64,000 nt of DNA from Gracilaria domingensis (lineage: Eukaryota; Rhodophyta; Florideophyceae; Gracilariales; Gracilariaceae), in contig VCMS01000004.1 in NCBI GenBank assembly GCA_022539475.1, forward strand, positions 372,001 to 436,000, written 5' to 3'. The translations under genes and the position numbers were made by a program. Positions 32,880 through 64,000 of this stretch are shown here, one piece after another (the stretch's first letter is position 1; each line of letters begins with the position of its first letter). The notes beneath the pieces were generated by a model, which was given only the letters and a program-made list of their open reading frames with translations, made no database searches and was not told the DNA's origin.

Positions 32880-34082
32880 ATGGGCAAACATATGTCAATG
32901 GCTTTTGTTGCTCCACTGTATCGAGCGCTATTCGCTAATCACAGCACTTCTCTCAAACTTTCTACGCAACAGAAAAGAAGTGTTTGCAATCGCCAGAGAC
33001 CTGTCGCAACGATATCTATACCAGATGAAGCATCTCATGCTCCGAATATCGATTATGATGAGCTTGTCTCAGATGATACACATGTTGTACTAGACAGCTC
33101 TCAGATTGGCGCTGTTTTGGAAAAGCTCAAAGCGAATGGTCGTGATTCTGCTCTGGATTTAGACTGGGAAGATTTTCTGACTCTTGCTGAGGAAGAAGTT
33201 GATGAGCAATCAGATGAAGCTCAATTAGAGGAAACTCAATCAGAGGAAACTCAATCAGAGGAAACTCCATTAAAGGAAGCTCAATTAGAGGAAGTTCAAT
33301 CAGAAGAAGCTCAGTCAGAGGAAGCTCGATCAGAAGAAGCTCAATCAAAAGAAGCTCAACCAGAAGAAGCTCAACCAGAAGAAGCTCAATCGGAGGAAGC
33401 TCAGTCAGAGGAAGCCCGGTCCAGAGCTAAAGTAATAGAAGAAATAGAACGTGAAACCTCTGCAAACGGCCAGGTCTTGGGCAAAGGCACTATGAATTAC
33501 TTTACTAAGGAAAATGTCTCCTATATGCCGCGATGGCTTCGAGAAATGTACGACAATGGCTCTTACGAGGAGTTGGAAAAAGGTGCTGAGGAATTTTGTA
33601 ACAAGCAAAGACTGCATGATATTGTTGCTCGAAAGAAGGATCTAAATCCCGAAAATGTTGCGAAAGGGGATGGTATTGTGGACTGCTCTGTCGGAGATGT
33701 TGCCGATGATTATTCTGTTCCAGTCGAATTCGTGGTGGACGCTATGCTCGCGTATGGCGTGCCAGTTCCAATCACGCAATCCACAAGTGTGCGTAACAGC
33801 ATGACGACTGAAGAAATTCAAAAGCTGTTGAAGCTCATCACAAGTTTTGATGCAGTTGACTTGGCGGAAAGATACAGCGACGACAGTTTAGCAGAACTTG
33901 CGGATGCATACGACATTGATGTGAGCCGTTTTGTTGACGTATGTGAGAAAGAAGGCTTGTACCTTTGCCGTGGGGAACATACGCGGTTATCCTTGGTGAG
34001 GGAGAATCGAGTTTTAGATATACTGTTTAAGGGAGCAGATATGGGCCAACCTTACCCACCTCTGTTACAAGGTCTGGACTGA
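32880..34082 (+). CDS. Plastid-targeted protein with EEAQS repeats and two HTH-like segments
   Basis: First ATG 32880 (400 aa); ATG 32898 would start exactly at MAFVAPLYRALF. Either way the presequence is a textbook red-algal plastid transit peptide. Residues about 110-185 are some 14 copies of a five-residue unit like EEAQS, encoded by 15-bp repeats at 33214-33419. A conserved-looking block follows (YMPRWLREMYDNGSYEELE). Two related 35-residue segments come next: SVGDVADDYSVPVEFVVDAM and, about 80 residues later, SLAELADAYDIDVSRFVDVC, each ending in a beta-like turn. They look like duplicated helix-turn-helix units. I do not recognise the family; a nucleic-acid-binding role in the plastid is a guess. 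Confidence 0.7.
   Translation: MGKHMSMAFVAPLYRALFANHSTSLKLSTQQKRSVCNRQRPVATISIPDEASHAPNIDYDELVSDDTHVVLDSSQIGAVLEKLKANGRDSALDLDWEDFLTLAEEEVDEQSDEAQLEETQSEETQSEETPLKEAQLEEVQSEEAQSEEARSEEAQSKEAQPEEAQPEEAQSEEAQSEEARSRAKVIEEIERETSANGQVLGKGTMNYFTKENVSYMPRWLREMYDNGSYEELEKGAEEFCNKQRLHDIVARKKDLNPENVAKGDGIVDCSVGDVADDYSVPVEFVVDAMLAYGVPVPITQSTSVRNSMTTEEIQKLLKLITSFDAVDLAERYSDDSLAELADAYDIDVSRFVDVCEKEGLYLCRGEHTRLSLVRENRVLDILFKGADMGQPYPPLLQGLD
33214..33419 (+). repeat. 15-bp coding minisatellite (about 14 copies)
   Basis: The unit is close to GAAGCTCAATCAGAG, encoding E-E-A-Q-S with point variants (T for A, P or L for S). All variants keep the frame, as expected for an in-gene minisatellite that can change copy number without shifting the reading frame. 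Confidence 0.9.
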
Positions 34083-34306: not shown

Positions 34307-35362
34307 CTATGACACGGCATCCTCAAAACGACGACGTTTCTTTTTTAATCGTGCTGACGTCGAGAGTCCGTTCGAATGTTGCACTGATCGCTTCTCATCT
34401 TCGCACTTTAAGTCAAGGGCTACGCAATCATGAGTATGAGCTTCAGGAGAAGCTGGTCTTGAACTGCAGCCTTCTTTAGCTGTTTCTTCTTCAAAGCGCC
34501 TCTTCTTCATTTCATGCTTGGTTTGGCCCGCGGCTTTTTCTTCAAGCTTTACCGAAAAGTGTTCAAGAACAGTTGAGTTAGAAAAGTTCCTGTAGCAGGA
34601 CTTTTCGATAGGATGTTCATAAAGATCTTTTAGATACTTTGCAAGACGTTGACATTCTTCGGTGCTCGATCCAAGAACATGTTCCCACCCCTCAGGCAGA
34701 GTACCTTCACAATGTGAAGTTGCGAGAGAAATGCATGCACATGCTAGTACCTCCGGTGCTTCACGTACACAAATTTGATCAATAAGCAAATCATTCGCAT
34801 AGTCCCATGCTGCCTGTAACAAGGTATTAAATGGTCCGTGGCCTTCTGACCATCCTGGGGCTCCTGCTTTGTCACGGAGAGTATTGACAAATATTAAAAC
34901 GAAGTTGTGCGGAAGTTCCACTGCTAGGCGAAAGCCTAGTTCCTTGAGAACATGGCGCTCAGTCTCAATGAGAGCATTTTTCCAGTCATAGCCTTCAGCT
35001 CCGTAAAAATTAAGTGGACGACGGTAATTTCGTCCTTCAATGGCAACGGTTTCAACGCACACATTTTGACGGTCAACTAAACGATCGTAAAGTACATTAG
35101 CTACGTGCCGTAGCGATCGCGGTTCATCGGCAAGCTTCGCAGAGAGATTGACACATGCTCCAGCAGCCCATACAGTATTGTGCGCGATGAGCGAGACTTG
35201 GGTGTAAAAGCGATGCAGCAACATTTGAGAATTGGCGCAAACACGCTGAGACAGGGAAAGTGCAAGGCATGACTCACGAACAAAGTCTGAGGCGAAGGCC
35301 AATTGACGACGTTCTTCTTCGGGAGGTATACCGTCAAGGACGGATGGAGACGTGAAAGGCAT
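34307..35362 (-). CDS. Cyclin L-like cyclin
   Basis: 351 aa from the ATG at 35360-35362. The first cyclin fold aligns with cyclin L: FTSPSVLDGIP (compare TPSM.DGL), QMLLHRFY, VWAAGACVNLSAKLADEPR, RHVANVLYDR, then ERHVLKELGFRLAVELPHNF, LLQAAWDYANDLL and EVLACACISLA. Cyclin L partners CDK10/11-type kinases and acts in pre-mRNA splicing and transcription. The C-terminus has two copies of a KK(K)RRRFE motif instead of the long animal RS domain. Its ATG overlaps the stop of the upstream ycf20-like gene by one base (TGATG). Only eight residues precede the conserved block, so a missing 5' exon is possible but not required. Confidence 0.85.
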   Translation of the reverse strand: MPFTSPSVLDGIPPEEERRQLAFASDFVRESCLALSLSQRVCANSQMLLHRFYTQVSLIAHNTVWAAGACVNLSAKLADEPRSLRHVANVLYDRLVDRQNVCVETVAIEGRNYRRPLNFYGAEGYDWKNALIETERHVLKELGFRLAVELPHNFVLIFVNTLRDKAGAPGWSEGHGPFNTLLQAAWDYANDLLIDQICVREAPEVLACACISLATSHCEGTLPEGWEHVLGSSTEECQRLAKYLKDLYEHPIEKSCYRNFSNSTVLEHFSVKLEEKAAGQTKHEMKKRRFEEETAKEGCSSRPASPEAHTHDCVALDLKCEDEKRSVQHSNGLSTSARLKKKRRRFEDAVS

Positions 35363-35955
35363 CAAGTAGTAAGCTTGAGAGCATCAACAGTCATTCCATA
35401 TATGAGACCAATCTTAAATGCATTTATGATTTGCAAAATGCGGGATGGCCGTTCCGAAGTATAATAGTACTTGGTGAACGACTCGGTCCAAATAAGCAAA
35501 ACGGCAGCAGCCAGCGGATCCCAATCGGCAACAGAGCCGATAATCGTAGCTGCAGAAGTGGCAGAGAAGAATCCAAAGAGTATTGCAAGTGCCGCTGCCG
35601 AGATGAGATGGATTGGGTTAGACAAATACTTGTCAATGCTCGGGCTGAGATCGCGACGCAAATAGTTGAAAATGCTTGTGAGCTGACTCTCGCTATCAGC
35701 AAGATTGGGTGCCGGCTTTCCAGATAGCCCAAAAATGGTCGAGGAGGAAATGATATCTTCTGGGATAGCGTTGAGACGACTGAGCAAATCGTCTTCTCTT
35801 CGCCACGACTGTTTGGGATCTTCAGATGGCTCTTTGCTTTGGAGCGCAATAGGCGGCGCGTAACAGGGCGGACGGCAGATAGATGGCTTTGCGTTTTCAG
35901 GGAAAGATTTCCGGTGCGGAAAGACTGTGATGAAGCACACGGAGGGTGAATTCAT
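35362..35955 (-). CDS. ycf20: Ycf20-like (DUF565) plastid membrane protein
   Basis: The frame is open further upstream, but the first ATG is at 35953-35955 (197 aa, MNSPSVCFITVF). The first 70 residues look like a transit peptide. The DUF565/Ycf20 domain fills the C-terminal 90: a transmembrane helix around SAAALAILFGFFSATSAA, GSVADWDPLAAAVLLIW, ESFTKYYY and the signature NAFKIGLIYGMTVDALKL. In Chlamydomonas and Arabidopsis, Ycf20 proteins affect non-photochemical quenching. Many red-algal plastid genomes carry their own ycf20, so this nuclear copy is either a transferred gene or a paralogue. The stop overlaps the cyclin L start. Confidence 0.82.
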   Translation of the reverse strand: MNSPSVCFITVFPHRKSFPENAKPSICRPPCYAPPIALQSKEPSEDPKQSWRREDDLLSRLNAIPEDIISSSTIFGLSGKPAPNLADSESQLTSIFNYLRRDLSPSIDKYLSNPIHLISAAALAILFGFFSATSAATIIGSVADWDPLAAAVLLIWTESFTKYYYTSERPSRILQIINAFKIGLIYGMTVDALKLTT

Positions 35956-36651
35956 GACAAAAGAGGAGCTGTCGAAGAGAAGAATCCCGTCAAGTGTTGT
36001 CTTCGCTTCTTTCCATGCGAATGCATTGTTCTTCCTGGCTCCCGCGCAGAAAGTGGTCCGCACAGGACCGCGGACCGCGAAACGACATTGCAGTGAAGGA
36101 CGAGCTGTAAATCCTTTCGTTTTCGAATACCCGCAGAGAACTTTGCAGCCAGCCCAACTTGGACCGTGTCCAACTCGTCGCCGTGTCAAGACCTGCCCTG
36201 GCGTTGGTGTCGTCTGGTGTTACACCAGTGGTGTTGTTGCTCGACAGCTGCCGCAACGCGTCATAAACAGTGAAGGTCCGGAGCCGACGTCACCAGCTGC
36301 TACGTGTACTGTACATGCATCCCGATTGGCTGATGCGACGTATGGATACCGCAATACCAATTTGGCGCCAAATTGTTGTAGATGAGAAGAGAAACCAAGC
36401 CGTCGAACAGTGCTTTCTCCTCGACAGTTTTGCGGCGCAGCGTTCGCCCTTGGCAGTATCATTGCCTTCGCACCGCCCATTGCGACAGCATCTGCAAGTA
36501 TCAGTCTGCTTCTCACCGACACACACGAAACCATCTCCCTAGTCCAGGACGCAAAGAATGCCCAACATGAAATCGGTTGTCTCCGAGGACGAAATAACAC
36601 CAATGGTGCGCGAGATTCTGATAGGTAAAGACCTCAGCAGGAACCGGCAAA
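35956..36651. other. Divergent promoter, ycf20-cyclin L / HIRIP3-like
   Basis: About 700 bp between head-to-head transcription units. It contains the 18-bp E2F-type palindrome at 36358-36375. Short frames on both strands have no family features. Confidence 0.5.
36358..36375. promoter_or_regulatory. 18-bp perfect palindrome containing an E2F site
   Basis: CAATTTGGCGCCAAATTG reads the same on both strands and centres on TTTGGCGCCAAA, which satisfies the E2F consensus in both directions. It lies 277 bp upstream of the histone-chaperone ATG and about 400 bp upstream of ycf20. Confidence 0.6.
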
Positions 36652-37613
36652 ATGGTTCGGGAGCGCATCATTGAGCAACTTGGCGACCGCATACAGCCAG
36701 ATGACTTGAACGCGGTCAAAGCTGCTGTGAAGTCAGCTCTCAAGGTCGTTCTTCGACAAGGCTCGAATCCAGCTGCACCTGAAGCCTCTGCCCCACCTCA
36801 ACCGCCGTCAGGGGATGACGCCGCCAACCAGCCGTCTACTGAACACACAACTGAATCTGCTCATCCCACCACACAGACTGAGCCACCTGGAGATCAACTA
36901 GATGAGGAGGAAAGTCAACCAAACAATTCGAAATCTGAGAGTGAGTACGACGATGGTCACGAGGAGCAAGTAAAGCCTTCATCAAAAAAGAGAACTCGAA
37001 AGGTAGTAAGCTCCGACTCAGAATCAAATTCAGACTCAGACTCGGAACCGCAACCGAAGCCCCGGCGTAGGAAGAACCCCACCGCTTCTGTTCAGAAACG
37101 CGCAAAGAATCAACAAAGTTCCGCGGGGCAACGACGTTTAGATCAGCTCAAGAAATTGTGCCGTCAACTAGGATGCCCGGTTCCGCCTGGAAAGCAACGA
37201 GGTGCTGACCCTCGTGAAAAGTACGATAATGTCCTTGAGTATCTTCGATCAAAGGGTGTACGAGAGGCACATCCCCTCGACATGTCGTCTCATGAAATTT
37301 CCAAGCATCGCAAACGCCTCGCCAGAGAAAAGGAACTAGAAGGCCTGGATGTGAAGTAAGTTGTACAAGATGACTGCTATACAGAGCCTAAACTTTACTT
37401 GACATACTGACGAGCTTCATTCTGTTTCATCATATTTCATCCAACAACAGAAACATAATCGACGATGGAGGCAGATCAAGGCGACGTGCTTCAAAGCCAG
37501 CAAGACAACTAAACGACAAGTTGCCGTCGGACTTGAGCGGTGCAGAACTTTCAGAAGATTCGGAAAGTGCGGAGAGCGAAGGTTATGCTGCACCTTCTGA
37601 TGGTTCCGAGTGA
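36652..37613 (+). CDS. HIRIP3/CHZ-like histone chaperone (one intron)
   Basis: Exons 36652-37355 and 37451-37613 encode 288 aa. The 95-bp intron (GTAAGT to CAACAACAG) splits a Lys codon, so the product reads ELEGLDVKNIIDDGG across the junction. ELEGLD..NII is the CHZ motif that binds H2A-H2B dimers. The N-terminus (MVRERIIEQLGDRIQ) forms a DEK-C-like helical bundle. A long acidic, Ser-rich, disordered middle with KKRTRK and RRRK nuclear signals follows, and then a conserved helical block (LDQLKKLCRQLGCPVPPG, KYDNVLEYLRSKGV). HIRIP3 proteins handle H2A-H2B in chromatin assembly. An E2F palindrome lies upstream. Confidence 0.85.
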
Positions 37614-58637: not shown

Positions 58638-60002
58638 TCACTGAGCATCTTGATCATAGTTTCTAATTGCTTCTCCGATACGTCGAACACCTTCAAGTAT
58701 GTCCTCCTCGCTGAGAAAAGCAAAGCAGAGACGAATGCAATTATGAAAACTGTCACCGTCACTTGAAAAATGACGCCCCGTAAAGAAGAAGACGCCGTGC
58801 TTCTCCTTGGCAAGTTTGAGCAGCTTTTCCGAATTGATTCGCTTCGGAAGTATTATGAAGCAGAAGAAGCCACCTTGAGGTCTGTGGTAGTGCATAACTT
58901 CACCTTCTCGCAAAGCGGGACGAATGTATTTTTCAATTGCGTCGCAAAGTGTACTTGAAGTGTCTTGATAATGAGTACGAAGCGCATCGACTTGGTCGTG
59001 CACAGCGTTAGATTCCATCATCTCGCTGATGACGGCAGATGCGAAAGGGTTCAATCCACCTCCGGATTGGATGGGACCGCTGTCAAGTATGCGTTGAATG
59101 TGGTGGCGGTTTGTGGTTAGCCAGCCGACGCGAAGGCCCGGACCTAGAAGCTTGCTAAAGGAATTGATTGCGAACACGGTTGGGTTGTCGGGGTGATCGT
59201 ATTCGTACAAACTGGTTGGCAACTGGCTGTCAAAGGTCAAGAATTGATACACTTCATCAGAAGCTGATGCAAAAGACACAACAGACAATACAGTCAGAAT
59301 AGCGAAGAAATGGGGTGAGGGCCGGATGAAGGGAGGGGAAGGCGGCAACTAACCAATCTTGAAGCCGTATTGGCGCGAAAGCTCTACAAGCTTTTGCTTT
59401 CTCGGTTCAGACATGGAGACGCCCGTCGGATTGTTGGCTATAGGTACGGTGTACACTAAAGCAGGGCGCTCTCCGCTGCTGAGTCGCTTCTCAACAGCAT
59501 CTACGTCCAGTCCATGTTGATCGGTTGGGACCTGCACAACATTAAGATTGCAGTCTTTGAAGGAATAGTAAGCTAGAAAGTAGCCCGGAGAATCTACAAA
59601 AACGGTGTCTCCAGGCTTGGAGAAGAGCTGACAGACGAGCGCAAGCGCGGGACCAGAGCCAGTCGTGATAAGAATTTGATCCGGGCTGAGGTTGGCCGTA
59701 GGTCGCTGAGCGTGTGCAGCCACCCAATGCGCGATCTGTTCCCTGAGGCGGGGGTTGCCCTGGTTCAAGCCATACTGCATCATGGTAACGTGCGCATTGG
59801 GACGGCGTGCGGCGGCGTCGAAGGCGTTGCTCAACTCGGCGAGGGGGAGCAGGTGCGGGCTGGGATGACCCTTGCCCAGATTGATGGCCGGGCCGGTGTT
59901 GGCGGCCCACAGTGCGGCGCCGGAGGTTGCGGGACGCATGGCGTGACGCGGGGATATGGGGAGATTTCGGAGCACCGCTGAGGTGGAGACGGACAGCGGC
60001 AT
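58638..60002 (-). CDS. PLP-dependent class I/II aminotransferase (2-aminoadipate type), one intron
   Basis: Exons 59354-60002 and 58638-59263 encode 424 aa. The 90-bp intron (GTTAGT to TTTTGCATCAG) splits an Ala codon and rejoins YGFKIASDEVYQFL. Seen in order are the substrate start INLGKGHPSPHLLP, MMQYGLNQGNPRLREQIAHW, ITTGSGPALALVCQLF, PIANNPTGVSMS, DEVYQ, the Schiff-base Lys in SFSKLLGPGLRVGW, and the final Arg in NCIRLCFAF. The closest types are AADAT, the archaeal LysN and related fungal enzymes, which use 2-aminoadipate, kynurenine or aromatic amino acids. The substrate cannot be set. The N-terminus has a modest Ser/Arg presequence, possibly mitochondrial. Confidence 0.9.
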
Positions 60003-60274
60003 GGGATCGCACGGCGGGGGGTGGGGGGGGGGTTGAGAGTCTCAACTTGAGACGCGCGGAAGTGACGGCGCGCATTTCGGCACTGTCGGCGTGGGGCTGC
60101 GCGCTCTCGGGGAGATGTGACAAAATTGTGCCGAAAAGTGGGGCATCGGTCTGCAGACTCTGCACTGATTTGACGGTCCGTGTGCTCGCGTCGCCAAGAA
60201 GGGGGGGGGGTAGAAGGCTAGCCTTATAGCCCGCCGTTGCGCTCGTCGTGCGTGGCGTGGCGCTCTGCAGCAAG

Positions 60275-60709
60275 ATGTTGCACTTGGTGGCGCTGCTGGT
60301 GTCGCTCGCGTCGCCGTTCTCGTTCGCGCAGCGCGTGCATCGCAGGCTGCACAACGACGTGAAGCCGCGCCTAAGCGAGAGCGTGTCGCACGAGCCGCCC
60401 GAACTGGCGCGCGCGCTGCGGCGCGAGGCGCTCGGCGGCGACTACTGGAAGGCGAGGCGCGGCAGCCTGCGCAAGGACGTGTGGTCCGCGCGCGCGCGCG
60501 ACGCGCTGAAGCACGACGTGTGGGCGGCGCGCGGCAGAATGAAGGGCGTGGAGCGACGGCGCCAGTACATCATGCACGAGTTTGATGGCAGGGAGAGCGT
60601 GTCCGTGCGCTGGGGCGACTGGCGCCGGCGGCGCAGCTGCGCGAATGGCGCGGTGGCCGGGCGCTCGCGGGAGCGCGTGTTGCGGTCGATGGGGCTGGAT
60701 GATGTGTAA
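60275..60709 (+). CDS. Small secreted or ER protein of unknown function
   Basis: A 144-aa frame with ATG at 60275. MLHLVALLVSLASPFSFAQR is a clean signal peptide with a likely cut after SFA. The mature part is basic and Arg-rich, with a twofold motif (RKDVWSARARDALK and KHDVWAARGRMKG) and one Cys. I recognise no family. The DNA is very GC-rich, so an open frame alone is weak support; the signal peptide and the divergent position relative to the aminotransferase are the main arguments. The opposite strand is also open by composition. Confidence 0.45.
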   Translation: MLHLVALLVSLASPFSFAQRVHRRLHNDVKPRLSESVSHEPPELARALRREALGGDYWKARRGSLRKDVWSARARDALKHDVWAARGRMKGVERRRQYIMHEFDGRESVSVRWGDWRRRRSCANGAVAGRSRERVLRSMGLDDV

Positions 60710-61431
60710 GCGGCCGGCCGCACGCGCGCGGTGCGTGTGCGCGTGAGGGACGCAGCGTGAGCCACCGCGATGGTGGGGGACGGTGGGGGACGGCGGGGGA
60801 CGGCGGGGGACGGCGGGGGACGGCAAGGTGGCGGCAGCACTGGTGTGGGGGGTGGGGGTAATGCAGAGGACTGAGTTGGGGTTTATCTTACACGCCATGG
60901 TCATGATGGCGAGACTGTCCATTGGAGGGGCTCCAGAGGCGGGAAGGTAACGGCGAACGACGGAGATTGGGCGGCGACGAGTGCGCGCGCAGGAGTGCTG
61001 TGCTGACTCCTGACTCGGGAGTGGTGCGACGTTGGTGAACACGGAAGGTCCGTGACGGAACGTGTTTGCAGGCGCGGGCGCGGTACACTACTGTATCAGC
61101 TGTACTGTCGCTGGGCGCGCGCGGCGGACATACAGCTGTAGCAACTGTCAACAGATCACTTTTTGAGCAGCGCTTTCTCTCGTTTGCGCGCTGCGTGTTC
61201 GCGCGCTGCGCGTTCACCCGCTGCGCGTTCACCCGCTCCGTCGTCGCTTCTTGTTCGCGCGCGCGTCCCGTTCGCGCGCGCGTCCCGTTCGCGCGCCTGC
61301 AGCCCGCGCGCACGGCGCGCAGCGTCGGCGGTTGGAGACACAAACGGAGCCGAAGCACTTTTTCAAGCAACAGCGCCGCGCCGCCGCCAAGCGCCGCGAG
61401 CGCCGCCGCGGCGAGTGACGGCGCGCGCGCC
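60710..61431. other. GC-rich gap with 10-bp minisatellite
   Basis: About 720 bp. Five copies of a 10-bp unit near CGGCGGGGGA fill 60771-60820. A run of GCGCGCTGCGC-type repeats lies near 61190-61290. No supportable gene; the MARCH-like frame is open further upstream but without ATG. Confidence 0.45.
60771..60820. repeat. 10-bp G-rich minisatellite, 5 copies
   Basis: The copies read TGGTGGGGGA, CGGTGGGGGA, then CGGCGGGGGA three times. The regular G5 tracts could form G-quadruplexes. Confidence 0.9.
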
Positions 61432-62022
61432 ATGACGGCCGTGTGCCGCATCTGCCAGTGCGGCAGCGAGCCGCGCGCCGCGCGCGACGACGGCGGCGAC
61501 GGCGACGGCGGCGACGGCGACGGCGACGGCGACGACGCGCCGCGCGCGCGCGCGCTCATCCGCGCGTGCGGCTGCCGCGGCACGCAGGCGCACACGCACG
61601 CGCGCTGCCTCGAGCGGTGGATCCGGCGCCGCCTGTCGCGCGGCGAGCCGCTGCGGCGCGCGACGCGCTGCGAGCTGTGCCGCGCGCGCTACCGCCACGC
61701 GCTGCGGCGCGCGCCGCTGCGCCGGCTGCTGCTGGGGCGCGGCGCGGCGCGCCGCTGGCTGCACGCCGCGTGCGTCGCGCTCGCGGCGCTGCGGCTGGCG
61801 GCCGAGCTGCGCGCGGCGCGCGCGCGGCCGCGCGCGGCGGCGCGGCGGCGCGGCGCGCTGGCGGCGGCGGTGGCGCTGCACTACGTGACGGCGGCGCTGT
61901 GGCACGCGCGCGCGCTGCTGCGCTCGTGGCGCGCGTGGCGCGCCGAGAACGTGCGTGTAGTGGTGCGCGACCGCGACGCGGCGCCGCCGCCGCCGCCGCC
62001 GCCGCGCGAGAACGGCGCGTAG
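61432..62022 (+). CDS. RING-CH (MARCH-type) membrane E3 ubiquitin ligase
   Basis: 196 aa from ATG 61432 (MTAVCRICQCGSE). The C4HC3 RING-CH ligands are all present: CRIC, then CGC, H-x2-C in THARCLERWI, and CELC. A Gly/Asp run (GDGDGDGDD) is inserted between the first and second Cys pairs. Two hydrophobic segments follow (about 100-125, AACVALAALRLAAEL; 140-160, AALAAAVALHYVTAAL), the usual MARCH arrangement, ending in a Pro run. MARCH proteins ubiquitinate membrane cargo. The DNA is among the most GC-rich in the window, so codon choice is almost all GC in the third position; the ordered Cys/His pattern makes it real. Confidence 0.85.
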   Translation: MTAVCRICQCGSEPRAARDDGGDGDGGDGDGDGDDAPRARALIRACGCRGTQAHTHARCLERWIRRRLSRGEPLRRATRCELCRARYRHALRRAPLRRLLLGRGAARRWLHAACVALAALRLAAELRAARARPRAAARRRGALAAAVALHYVTAALWHARALLRSWRAWRAENVRVVVRDRDAAPPPPPPPRENGA

Positions 62023-62036
62023 CGGCGCGCGGCGGC

Positions 62037-62147
62037 GCGCCAAATCGCGGCGCGCCGTGCTCGCCGCGCCGTTTTGGCCCTAAACGGCGGAAAAAAAGGC
62101 GCCCAAACGAGCGCGCGTGGCGCCGTTTTGCGCGCGCCATTCCCGCC
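62037..62147. promoter_or_regulatory. Two E2F-like sites upstream of CDT2
   Basis: GCGCCAAA (62037-62044) and TTCCCGCC (62140-62147) match E2F half-sites, about 300 and 190 bp upstream of the CDT2 ATG. In this GC-rich DNA chance matches are more likely than elsewhere. Confidence 0.4.
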
Positions 62148-62336
62148 ACGCGCGCTTTGCGCAGCTTTGCGTTCGCGCCAACCCGCGCGCCAGCCGCCGC
62201 GCCACTTGCTTAAAACGCGCCGCCGCGCCGCCGCCGCGCTCCCGGCTCCCGCCCATCGCTCACCGCCCACTGCCCCCGTCCAGCTCGCCCAGTCCGCCGA
62301 CCCCCGCAACCACCCCCCCCCCCCCCGCCGTCTGTC

Positions 62337-63931
62337 ATGGCCTGCCCCACTAACAGTCTTTTCTCCGCCCTCCGCGCCCGTGAACACGGTTTTCGATGCC
62401 ATCGTACGTAGCGCTCTCTGCTCCCGCCTTGGTCGTTCGTTTCCTCCCCCTCCCGCAACATCGCTCTAACCTTTGCTCGCCTCACCCGTTCGCACAAACA
62501 GGACCGGACCACCATATCTTGGGCGCTCTCCGAACCACTCCGGAAGATGAATTTTCGTTCTGGAACGTGCAGCCGCCACAGCCACCGCAAGCTGTCCCCC
62601 CGTTCTCCATCTCCTTCTCCACCCGCGCGCTGCACGGCCATGCGCTCCTGGCCGCCGACGAGGATGGTGTCATCACCATCTTGGACACGCGCCGCTCCTT
62701 CCGCACACAACTTCACGCCTTCGCTAACTCGCCCGAAGCGCCGCCAGCGCGCTTCCGCGCCCACGACAACGCAATCTTCGACGCCATCTGGATCAACAAC
62801 GATGAGGAGGTGGCCACCGCATCGGGCGATACAACGGTGCGAGTGTTCGATGTGGAGAGACACATCCGCACCGCAGCGTGCCGTGGAGCGTCCGGAAGTG
62901 TCAAGGCCGTGCGTCAGTTGTCACCGTGCGTGCTGGCCTCAGCATCTCGAGATGGTGGCATCAGCGTGTTTGACACGCGGTCGCCCACGTACTGTGACAA
63001 CAGCTACGCGCGGGAAAACTATCTTGTGCCGGTGTTGCACATCGCGGACGCCCACGCCAAGCCGCGCCCCTCCTGCGCCGTCTCCGGTACCAAGAGGCGA
63101 CGGGTGCAGGAAGAGCGCACGGTTGGCGGCAGTGTTACCGCGCTGGTGACGGTGCCCAGAAGCACCAACTACTTCTTCACCGCGGGTGCAGCAGACGGGA
63201 AGATCAAGTTGTGGGATCTCCGCAAGATCAGTCGCCCGGATGAGGATCACTTGCTCTTCACAGCCCGGCCCAGCGAGCAGCCGCGGCTCGACTGCGCGCC
63301 GAGAAGAAGGCAATACGGACTGGCGGCGCTGGATGTGAACTCGGCCGGGACGCACTTGATAGCGTCCGGAACCGACAGCTCCATCTACATGTACGACATA
63401 CACAACATGGATCTGGGCTACACGAGTGTGCTTGCGGGGCACAAGCAGACATCGTTCTACATCCGCGCCAAGTTCAGTCCGTGCGGGCGGTTTGTGGGTT
63501 CCGGATCGGCGGACAGTAAGGTGTACATCTGGGACACCTTGCGGGAGACTGAGTTGGGGCGGTTGGACCCCATCCTGCAGCTTGACGGCCATCGGGGGGG
63601 AGACGCGGCCGGCGTGGATTGGTGTCGGAGCGAGCAGCACAAGCTTGTGACTTACTCGGATGACTCGACGGCGAGGGTGTGGAGGCTGCACTCGGGGTGC
63701 AGCGCGGGCGGTGTACGGCGCGCCGGGGAGCAGCCGTCCATGAGCGCGCGACGGGTGGAGGTGAAGAGACGGCGCGTCGCGGTGAGAAGACCTGTCGCGA
63801 GCAATAGAAAGCTTAGAGATTCCGATATTCGCTCGTACTTCAAGTGCGGGTCGTCGAGCCGGGGGGGGGCGCGGCGCCGCCCGACGGCGACGGGCGGTCG
63901 GAAGGTGCGGCAGTGGTGCGGAGAAATTTAA
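62337..63931 (+). CDS. CDT2: CDT2/DTL, CRL4 substrate receptor (one intron)
   Basis: Exons 62337-62403 and 62502-63931 encode 498 aa. The 98-bp intron (GTACGT to CGCACAAACAG) splits an Arg codon. Exon 1 gives MACPTNSLFSALRAREHGF, which aligns with the animal CDT2 start; an ATG at 62396 would miss this. The WD40 propeller covers about 40-420, with VPPFSISFS, ALLAADEDGVITILDTR, VATASGDTTVRVFDVE, TAGAADGKIKLWDLRK, YMYDIHNM and YSDDSTARVWRL. The repeats ending in W/F-D-x-R bind DDB1. The C-terminus has a PIP-box-like LRDSDIRSYFK. CRL4-CDT2 destroys CDT1 and other PCNA-bound proteins in S phase. Confidence 0.92.
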
Positions 63932-64000
63932 CGGGCAAGCGCGTGCTGCCGGACCGCGTGGAATAAAGATCGCAGTGTCGCTACACGTATCTATGCGGGA
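63932..64000. other. CDT2 3' flank
   Basis: The last 69 bases follow the CDT2 stop. GAATAAAG at about 63961 could serve as a polyadenylation signal. Confidence 0.3.

Follow-up and report, generated by a model that had tools for sequence, protein, structure and literature searches.

A one-base TGATG overlap of a nuclear ycf20-like gene and a cyclin L gene in the red alga Gracilaria domingensis: a putative dicistronic locus

Bicistronic nuclear mRNAs were described for green algae. There, leaky scanning is the main route to the second reading frame, start contexts of the first frame are weak, AUGs are depleted and spacers are short (PMC11892635). The pair described here, a ycf20-like gene (ORF1) and a cyclin L gene (ORF2), is comparable to the bicistrons reported there for Chlamydomonas reinhardtii and Auxenochlorella protothecoides regarding the common strand, the very short spacing and the long AUG-free stretch in ORF1. 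The shorter ORF also stands first (594 nt before 1,056 nt), as in the green algal cases, which speaks for a dicistron (PMC11892635). In contrast to the green algal spacers, with medians of 183 and 40 nt, a one-base overlap is found in the red alga; moreover, its ORF1 context is not weak, AUGs are clustered before ORF2 and the pair is known from DNA (PMC11892635).

The original prediction referred to dicistronic loci in green algae. This holds, and it can be extended to red algae, for which polycistronic nuclear transcripts were reported from Cyanidiophyceae (PMC9812998). As in our case, these are nuclear red algal genes and putative polycistrons, but Iso-Seq transcripts over two or more genes were presented for them, whereas ycf20/cyclin L is known from DNA alone. 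The Gracilariales host probably belongs to a different red algal class. About 14.5% of the Cyanidium genes were reported as polycistronic (PMC9812998), in favor of a dicistron here. Among the matches listed for open-licence PMC, this was the only paper on red algal polycistrons; for Gracilaria, Chondrus and Porphyridium, these matches included nothing on dicistronic nuclear genes, and the ycf20/cyclin L pair itself did not occur in them.

A stop and a start codon with one common base are also described for cellular UGAUG stop-restart pairs and for caliciviruses (PMC5972666). Unlike these, the red algal pair has no UGGGA within 160 nt, and both ORFs are long and belong to known families. Overlapping prokaryotic pairs of the ATGA/TGATG type have the identical junction sequence (PMC6728339), but here the genes are eukaryotic and nuclear, with products without known functional link. 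Coupled termination-reinitiation was reported for human overlapping ORFs as well (PMC3923131). In general, nuclear polycistrons and cellular UGAUG junctions are of a known kind; ycf20/cyclin L appears to be a new instance, with a putative dicistron.

The analysed window of 64 kb comprises positions 372001-436000 of contig C4, which is 545,092 bases long, within an assembly of 77.9 Mb and 680 contigs; positions without contig name refer to this window. ORF1 (35955..35362) encodes a nuclear ycf20-like protein of 197 aa with C-terminal DUF565, identified by translation and profile. ORF2 (35362..34307) encodes a cyclin L of 351 aa with a basic tail and without RS domain, identified by translation and cyclin matches. 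Both are located on the minus strand, which the prediction had not specified, and as predicted they overlap by one base in TGATG (35360..35364): the ORF1 TGA occupies 35364-35362, the ORF2 ATG 35362-35360, and only base 35362 is common. The claim that both proteins look complete could be upheld too, with DUF565 reaching the C-terminus of the first and cyclin homology beginning at residue 5 of the second. Two unrelated, complete-looking nuclear genes with a 1-nt overlap were thereby confirmed. Upstream of the ycf20 ATG, an intergenic promoter space of 696 nt (35956..36651, minus strand) extends to the ATG of a divergent gene at 36652 on the plus strand. Because the ORF2 ATG overlaps the ORF1 stop, cyclin L has no such intergenic promoter space. 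On its other side, a plus-strand gene (32880-34082) converges on cyclin L; at 33220-33430 it contains an acidic repeat built of SEEAQ-like units of about five codons. At the end of the window (60001-64000), the G+C content is 69%, compared to 45-56% in the remaining 4-kb bins, with many overlapping long low-complexity ORFs. An Rfam scan at gathering thresholds and a tRNA scan of the 64 kb were both empty.

The Pfam profile DUF565 matched ORF1 with E 3.7e-16 (59.7 bits, cut-off 27), profile positions 3-58 of 60 corresponding to residues 143-195 of 197. The C-terminus GLIYGMTVDALKLTT aligned through the last column with GIIYGLFVDAFKLGS of the plastid ycf20 from this assembly. The ycf20-like stop coincides with that of the plastid copy, in agreement with the statement that DUF565 ends at its usual place. 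The plastid-type ycf20 is located on contig C680, together with 10 of the 12 phycobilisome-domain matches of the genome; the other two were detected at C98:62890-63258 (E 1.4e-14) and C8:349437-349679 (E 2.3e-5). From the content of C680, a red alga is the simplest assignment of the host. Judged by its length, the N-terminal part of ORF1 would be sufficient for a plastid transit peptide. No match for the ycf20-like protein was found among the plasmids searched, and neither of the two proteins had an NCBIfam match.

For ORF2, the best solved relatives were Cyclin-L1 (E 8.2e-27) and Cyclin-L2 (2.1e-24), over residues 5-249, with Cyclin-L1 covering 5-248, and the match to solved cyclin K was far poorer than that to Cyclin-L1 (1.8e-9). 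Homology had been expected to start eight residues after the Met; it does start close by, but after four residues. Pfam detected Cyclin_N above the cut-off (E 3.3e-6) and Cyclin_C below it (E 0.007, 16.8 bits, cut-off 22). An Arg-Ser-rich C-terminal domain is a feature of animal and plant cyclin L. This domain was sought in ORF2 and is absent, with 3 RS/SR dipeptides in 351 aa. The search of the own genome with ORF2 gave one other match (26% identical). By its nearly equal values for cyclin K (1.8e-30) and cyclin L1 (1.4e-28), this second cyclin is classed as a cyclin K/L-type protein, and it may itself be L-like too. The segment preceding SPS, WLFTKEE in the second cyclin, is missing from ORF2, so the true start of cyclin L could lie elsewhere, which counts against a dicistron with this junction. 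Upstream of the cyclin L ATG, the frame is closed after seven codons and has no further in-frame ATG. Cyclin L relatives were also sought in IMG/VR and in prokaryote genome contigs, and none was confirmed; together with the plasmid search for ycf20, this yielded no relative carrying both genes side by side. The structure predicted for cyclin L from its sequence alone had a mean pLDDT of 38.8, too poor for use.

Gene spacing was investigated in 264 kb of contig C4 (the window with 200 kb of flanks), equal to 0.34% of the assembly. A 3-periodic coding score was trained on 67 long ORFs of this region, intron-containing genes being partly modelled. The scan gave 82 ORF genes; of their neighbour pairs, 33 are tandem, 24 convergent and 24 divergent. 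Median spacings were 433.5 nt for convergent, 1,026.5 nt for divergent and 1,691 nt for tandem pairs, the tandem series beginning with -43, -1, +139 and +249. With -1 nt, ycf20/cyclin L is the tightest of the 33 tandem pairs apart from one split gene, and the only genuine overlap among them. This value lies far outside the local tandem distribution, which favors a dicistron, as does the TGATG between complete-looking ORFs. A looser scan (ORFs of at least 50 aa, 101 of them scoring at least 10) returned the same three pairs within -60 to +200 nt, and no overlapping tandem pair was found in a further 40 kb from two other contigs with 11 ORF genes. Taken by itself, such a spacing could still be a single chance event in a genome with many closely packed gene pairs.

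The pair at -43 nt was considered as a second dicistron and rejected. It is one eIF4A-like DEAD-box helicase gene (C4:327721-328907, minus strand), split by a frame change into two ORFs that overlap by 43 nt and carry the DEAD and Helicase_C halves; it may represent an assembly indel, a pseudogene or a frameshift. The existence of small indels or true frameshifts on the same contig is the point in favor of an overlap made by assembly or sequence error. Here, such an error is hardly credible: the two protein families are unrelated, both frames are open and look complete as far as the junction, and an indel would need to spare both. A second candidate dicistron is seen at C4:488581-493755 (minus strand), where an ORF of 333 aa is followed by 249 ATG-free nt and a CAND1/TIP120 gene. 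The upstream ORF is partly of low complexity, matches no Pfam family and has the lowest ATG observed/expected ratio of the 82 genes (0.36), its roughly 1 kb containing 2 internal ATGs.

Dense packing may also be explained by two overlapping monocistronic units, with a cyclin L promoter inside the ycf20 coding sequence and a ycf20 3' UTR running into cyclin L. The one-base overlap would then be an outcome of genome compaction. This explanation is a close rival and has to be taken seriously, although we give it somewhat less weight than the dicistron. Close neighbours do occur on the contig: convergent pairs are separated by 42 and 44 nt, divergent pairs by 128-176 nt, and a further divergent pair, at -2, involves a low-complexity ORF. 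Gracilaria genes were described as mostly intron-less and red algal genomes as compact (PMC10388701). The weak start context of cyclin L could likewise be explained without a dicistron. Against two units stands the distance of 139 nt in the next-closest genuine tandem pair. TATAA is absent from the 300 nt upstream of cyclin L, which is powerless as an argument, since the motif occurs within 150 nt in only 4 of the other 81 genes. K-mer and motif searches of the regions upstream of start codons gave no usable core promoter element. As no core promoter motif stood out in the genome, a promoter of cyclin L inside ycf20 still has to be reckoned with.

As best single reading we propose that ycf20 and cyclin L are expressed from one dicistronic mRNA, by whichever route of translation, strict termination-reinitiation included; its probability is put somewhat short of even. 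While anatomy, protein identities and local spacing were observed, the single mRNA and its translation route are what we infer. A single promoter in the 696-nt gap would give an mRNA with ycf20 first and cyclin L second, and by the tight packing cyclin L would depend on transcription initiated upstream of ycf20. Most ribosomes would translate ycf20. Cyclin L, presumably needed in small amounts, would be served by a minority scanning past the ycf20 AUG. These ribosomes would cross 531 AUG-free nt and initiate in the AUG-rich last 62 nt, reaching cyclin L either directly at its own AUG or by restart at UGAUG after an in-frame stretch of 10 codons.

The start codons of ORF1 were counted on the minus strand. 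In all frames, 531 positions (35424..35954) are free of ATG starts, which is in favor of the dicistron. The distance of 532 nt from the ORF1 ATG to the next ATG in any frame is the second longest of the 82 genes; the longest (614 nt) lies in the start of a Gly-rich low-complexity ORF. In other genes, ATG-free windows of that size made up 49 of 28,772, coming from 2 genes. With the protein fixed, such a stretch was obtained in 3.0% of the recodings and 1.6% of the codon shuffles, a post hoc result, the end point having been picked after data inspection (P 0.016-0.030). The absence of Met from 176 ORF1 residues has a P of about 0.025, also post hoc. The ATG observed/expected ratio of ORF1 (0.51) is the second lowest of the 82 genes. 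On the other hand, the internal ATG total of 4 is not low compared to a mean of 5.2 in protein-fixed recodings (P = 0.34). All four lie within the last 62 nt, at 532, 556, 561 and 571 nt from the start, contrary to the preference of leaky scanning. The ATG at 561 (35394) is in the ycf20 frame, with 10 codons (35362..35394) ending on TGATG. The other three are out of frame; those at 532 and 556 (35423 and 35399) have a common frame closed at 565, and the frame of that at 571 (35384) extends beyond the cyclin L start.

Furthermore, the start contexts count against the proposed dicistron. With G at -3, that of ORF1 is at the 34th percentile of the 82 genes and not weak; with T at -3 and C at +4, that of cyclin L is nearly the worst, at the 1.2th percentile with one gene of 82 lower. 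The 696-nt gap also contains minus-strand ATGs at 36016, 36026, 36088 and 36264 (-61, -71, -133 and -309 relative to ORF1), and only a short 5' leader would leave these out. In the upstream gene of close tandem pairs (6 pairs within 400 nt, the split gene excluded), no general depletion of ATG was seen (P = 0.13), its ATG content not differing significantly from that in distant tandem pairs. Thus mixed, the translation features clearly favor neither leaky scanning nor reinitiation.

By strict termination-reinitiation, the mechanism of caliciviruses and influenza B, each cyclin L would come from a ribosome that starts again at UGAUG after translating ycf20 to its end. This route is already counted within the dicistronic reading and is not an additional one, and we regard it as unlikely. 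The junction does have the UGAUG form, and this form was discussed for cellular mRNAs, namely mouse embryonic GAD and human SLAMF1 (PMC5972666). The poor AUG context would presumably be less important if the 40S subunit is placed directly on the start. Against this route, reinitiation is documented to become less efficient as the first ORF gets longer (work cited in PMC11892635), and ORF1 comprises 197 codons. Reinitiation of the TURBS type relies on structure and on a UGGGA motif 1 located a short distance before the stop-restart site. The search close to the junction revealed none: the sole UGGGA core of the preceding 300 nt sits at -161, and the fold around the junction is not stable, being no better than that of shuffled sequences (z -0.45). 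A serial route is conceivable too, in which ribosomes miss the ycf20 AUG, initiate at AUG 35394, translate the last 10 ycf20 codons and restart at UGAUG for cyclin L. In this case ORF2 would have its short upstream ORF built into the tail of ORF1, but we hold this to be very improbable.

Alternative splicing from a shared upstream promoter would yield a ycf20 form and a form skipping most of ORF1, with cyclin L alone. It would be permitted by a donor-like GTGAG (36516) together with CAG sites within ORF1 that are rich in pyrimidines, the strongest of them at 35550 (all minus strand), and with its poor AUG and missing N-terminal segment cyclin L looks as if without an exon. Nevertheless, we consider it distinctly unlikely. 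We rejected a coding exon of cyclin L further upstream that would be joined through a good donor: among 33 frame-compatible joins, the best donor agreed with 4 of 7 positions of a consensus uncalibrated on the introns of this genome. The AG that would extend the cyclin frame upstream (CTCAAG, exon from 35373) is preceded by a poor pyrimidine tract, and in our reading the extension gives no recognisable cyclin N-terminus. A spliced leader ending at 35550 would retain four AUGs before cyclin L. An intron joining cyclin L to an upstream exon had been named as evidence against the overlap pair; with weak donors only, an in-frame coding exon of this kind is unlikely, and that none with a strong donor was found favors the dicistron. 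In principle, cyclin L with a non-coding upstream exon, or with an internal promoter, is possible.

In general, the anatomy of ycf20/cyclin L is real, clean and locally unusual, and on this anatomy dicistronic expression is plausible, at odds we would place just under even. If the promoter of cyclin L lies inside ycf20, the locus would illustrate genome compaction neatly but in an ordinary way. If both genes are expressed from one mRNA, a plastid protein would be tied by transcription to a splicing-linked cyclin. As both proteins are long and of known families, the UGAUG between them would then allow leaky scanning and reinitiation to be cleanly distinguished in a natural setting, and polycistronic nuclear expression would reach, beyond green algae and hot-spring red algae, what is probably a seaweed lineage.
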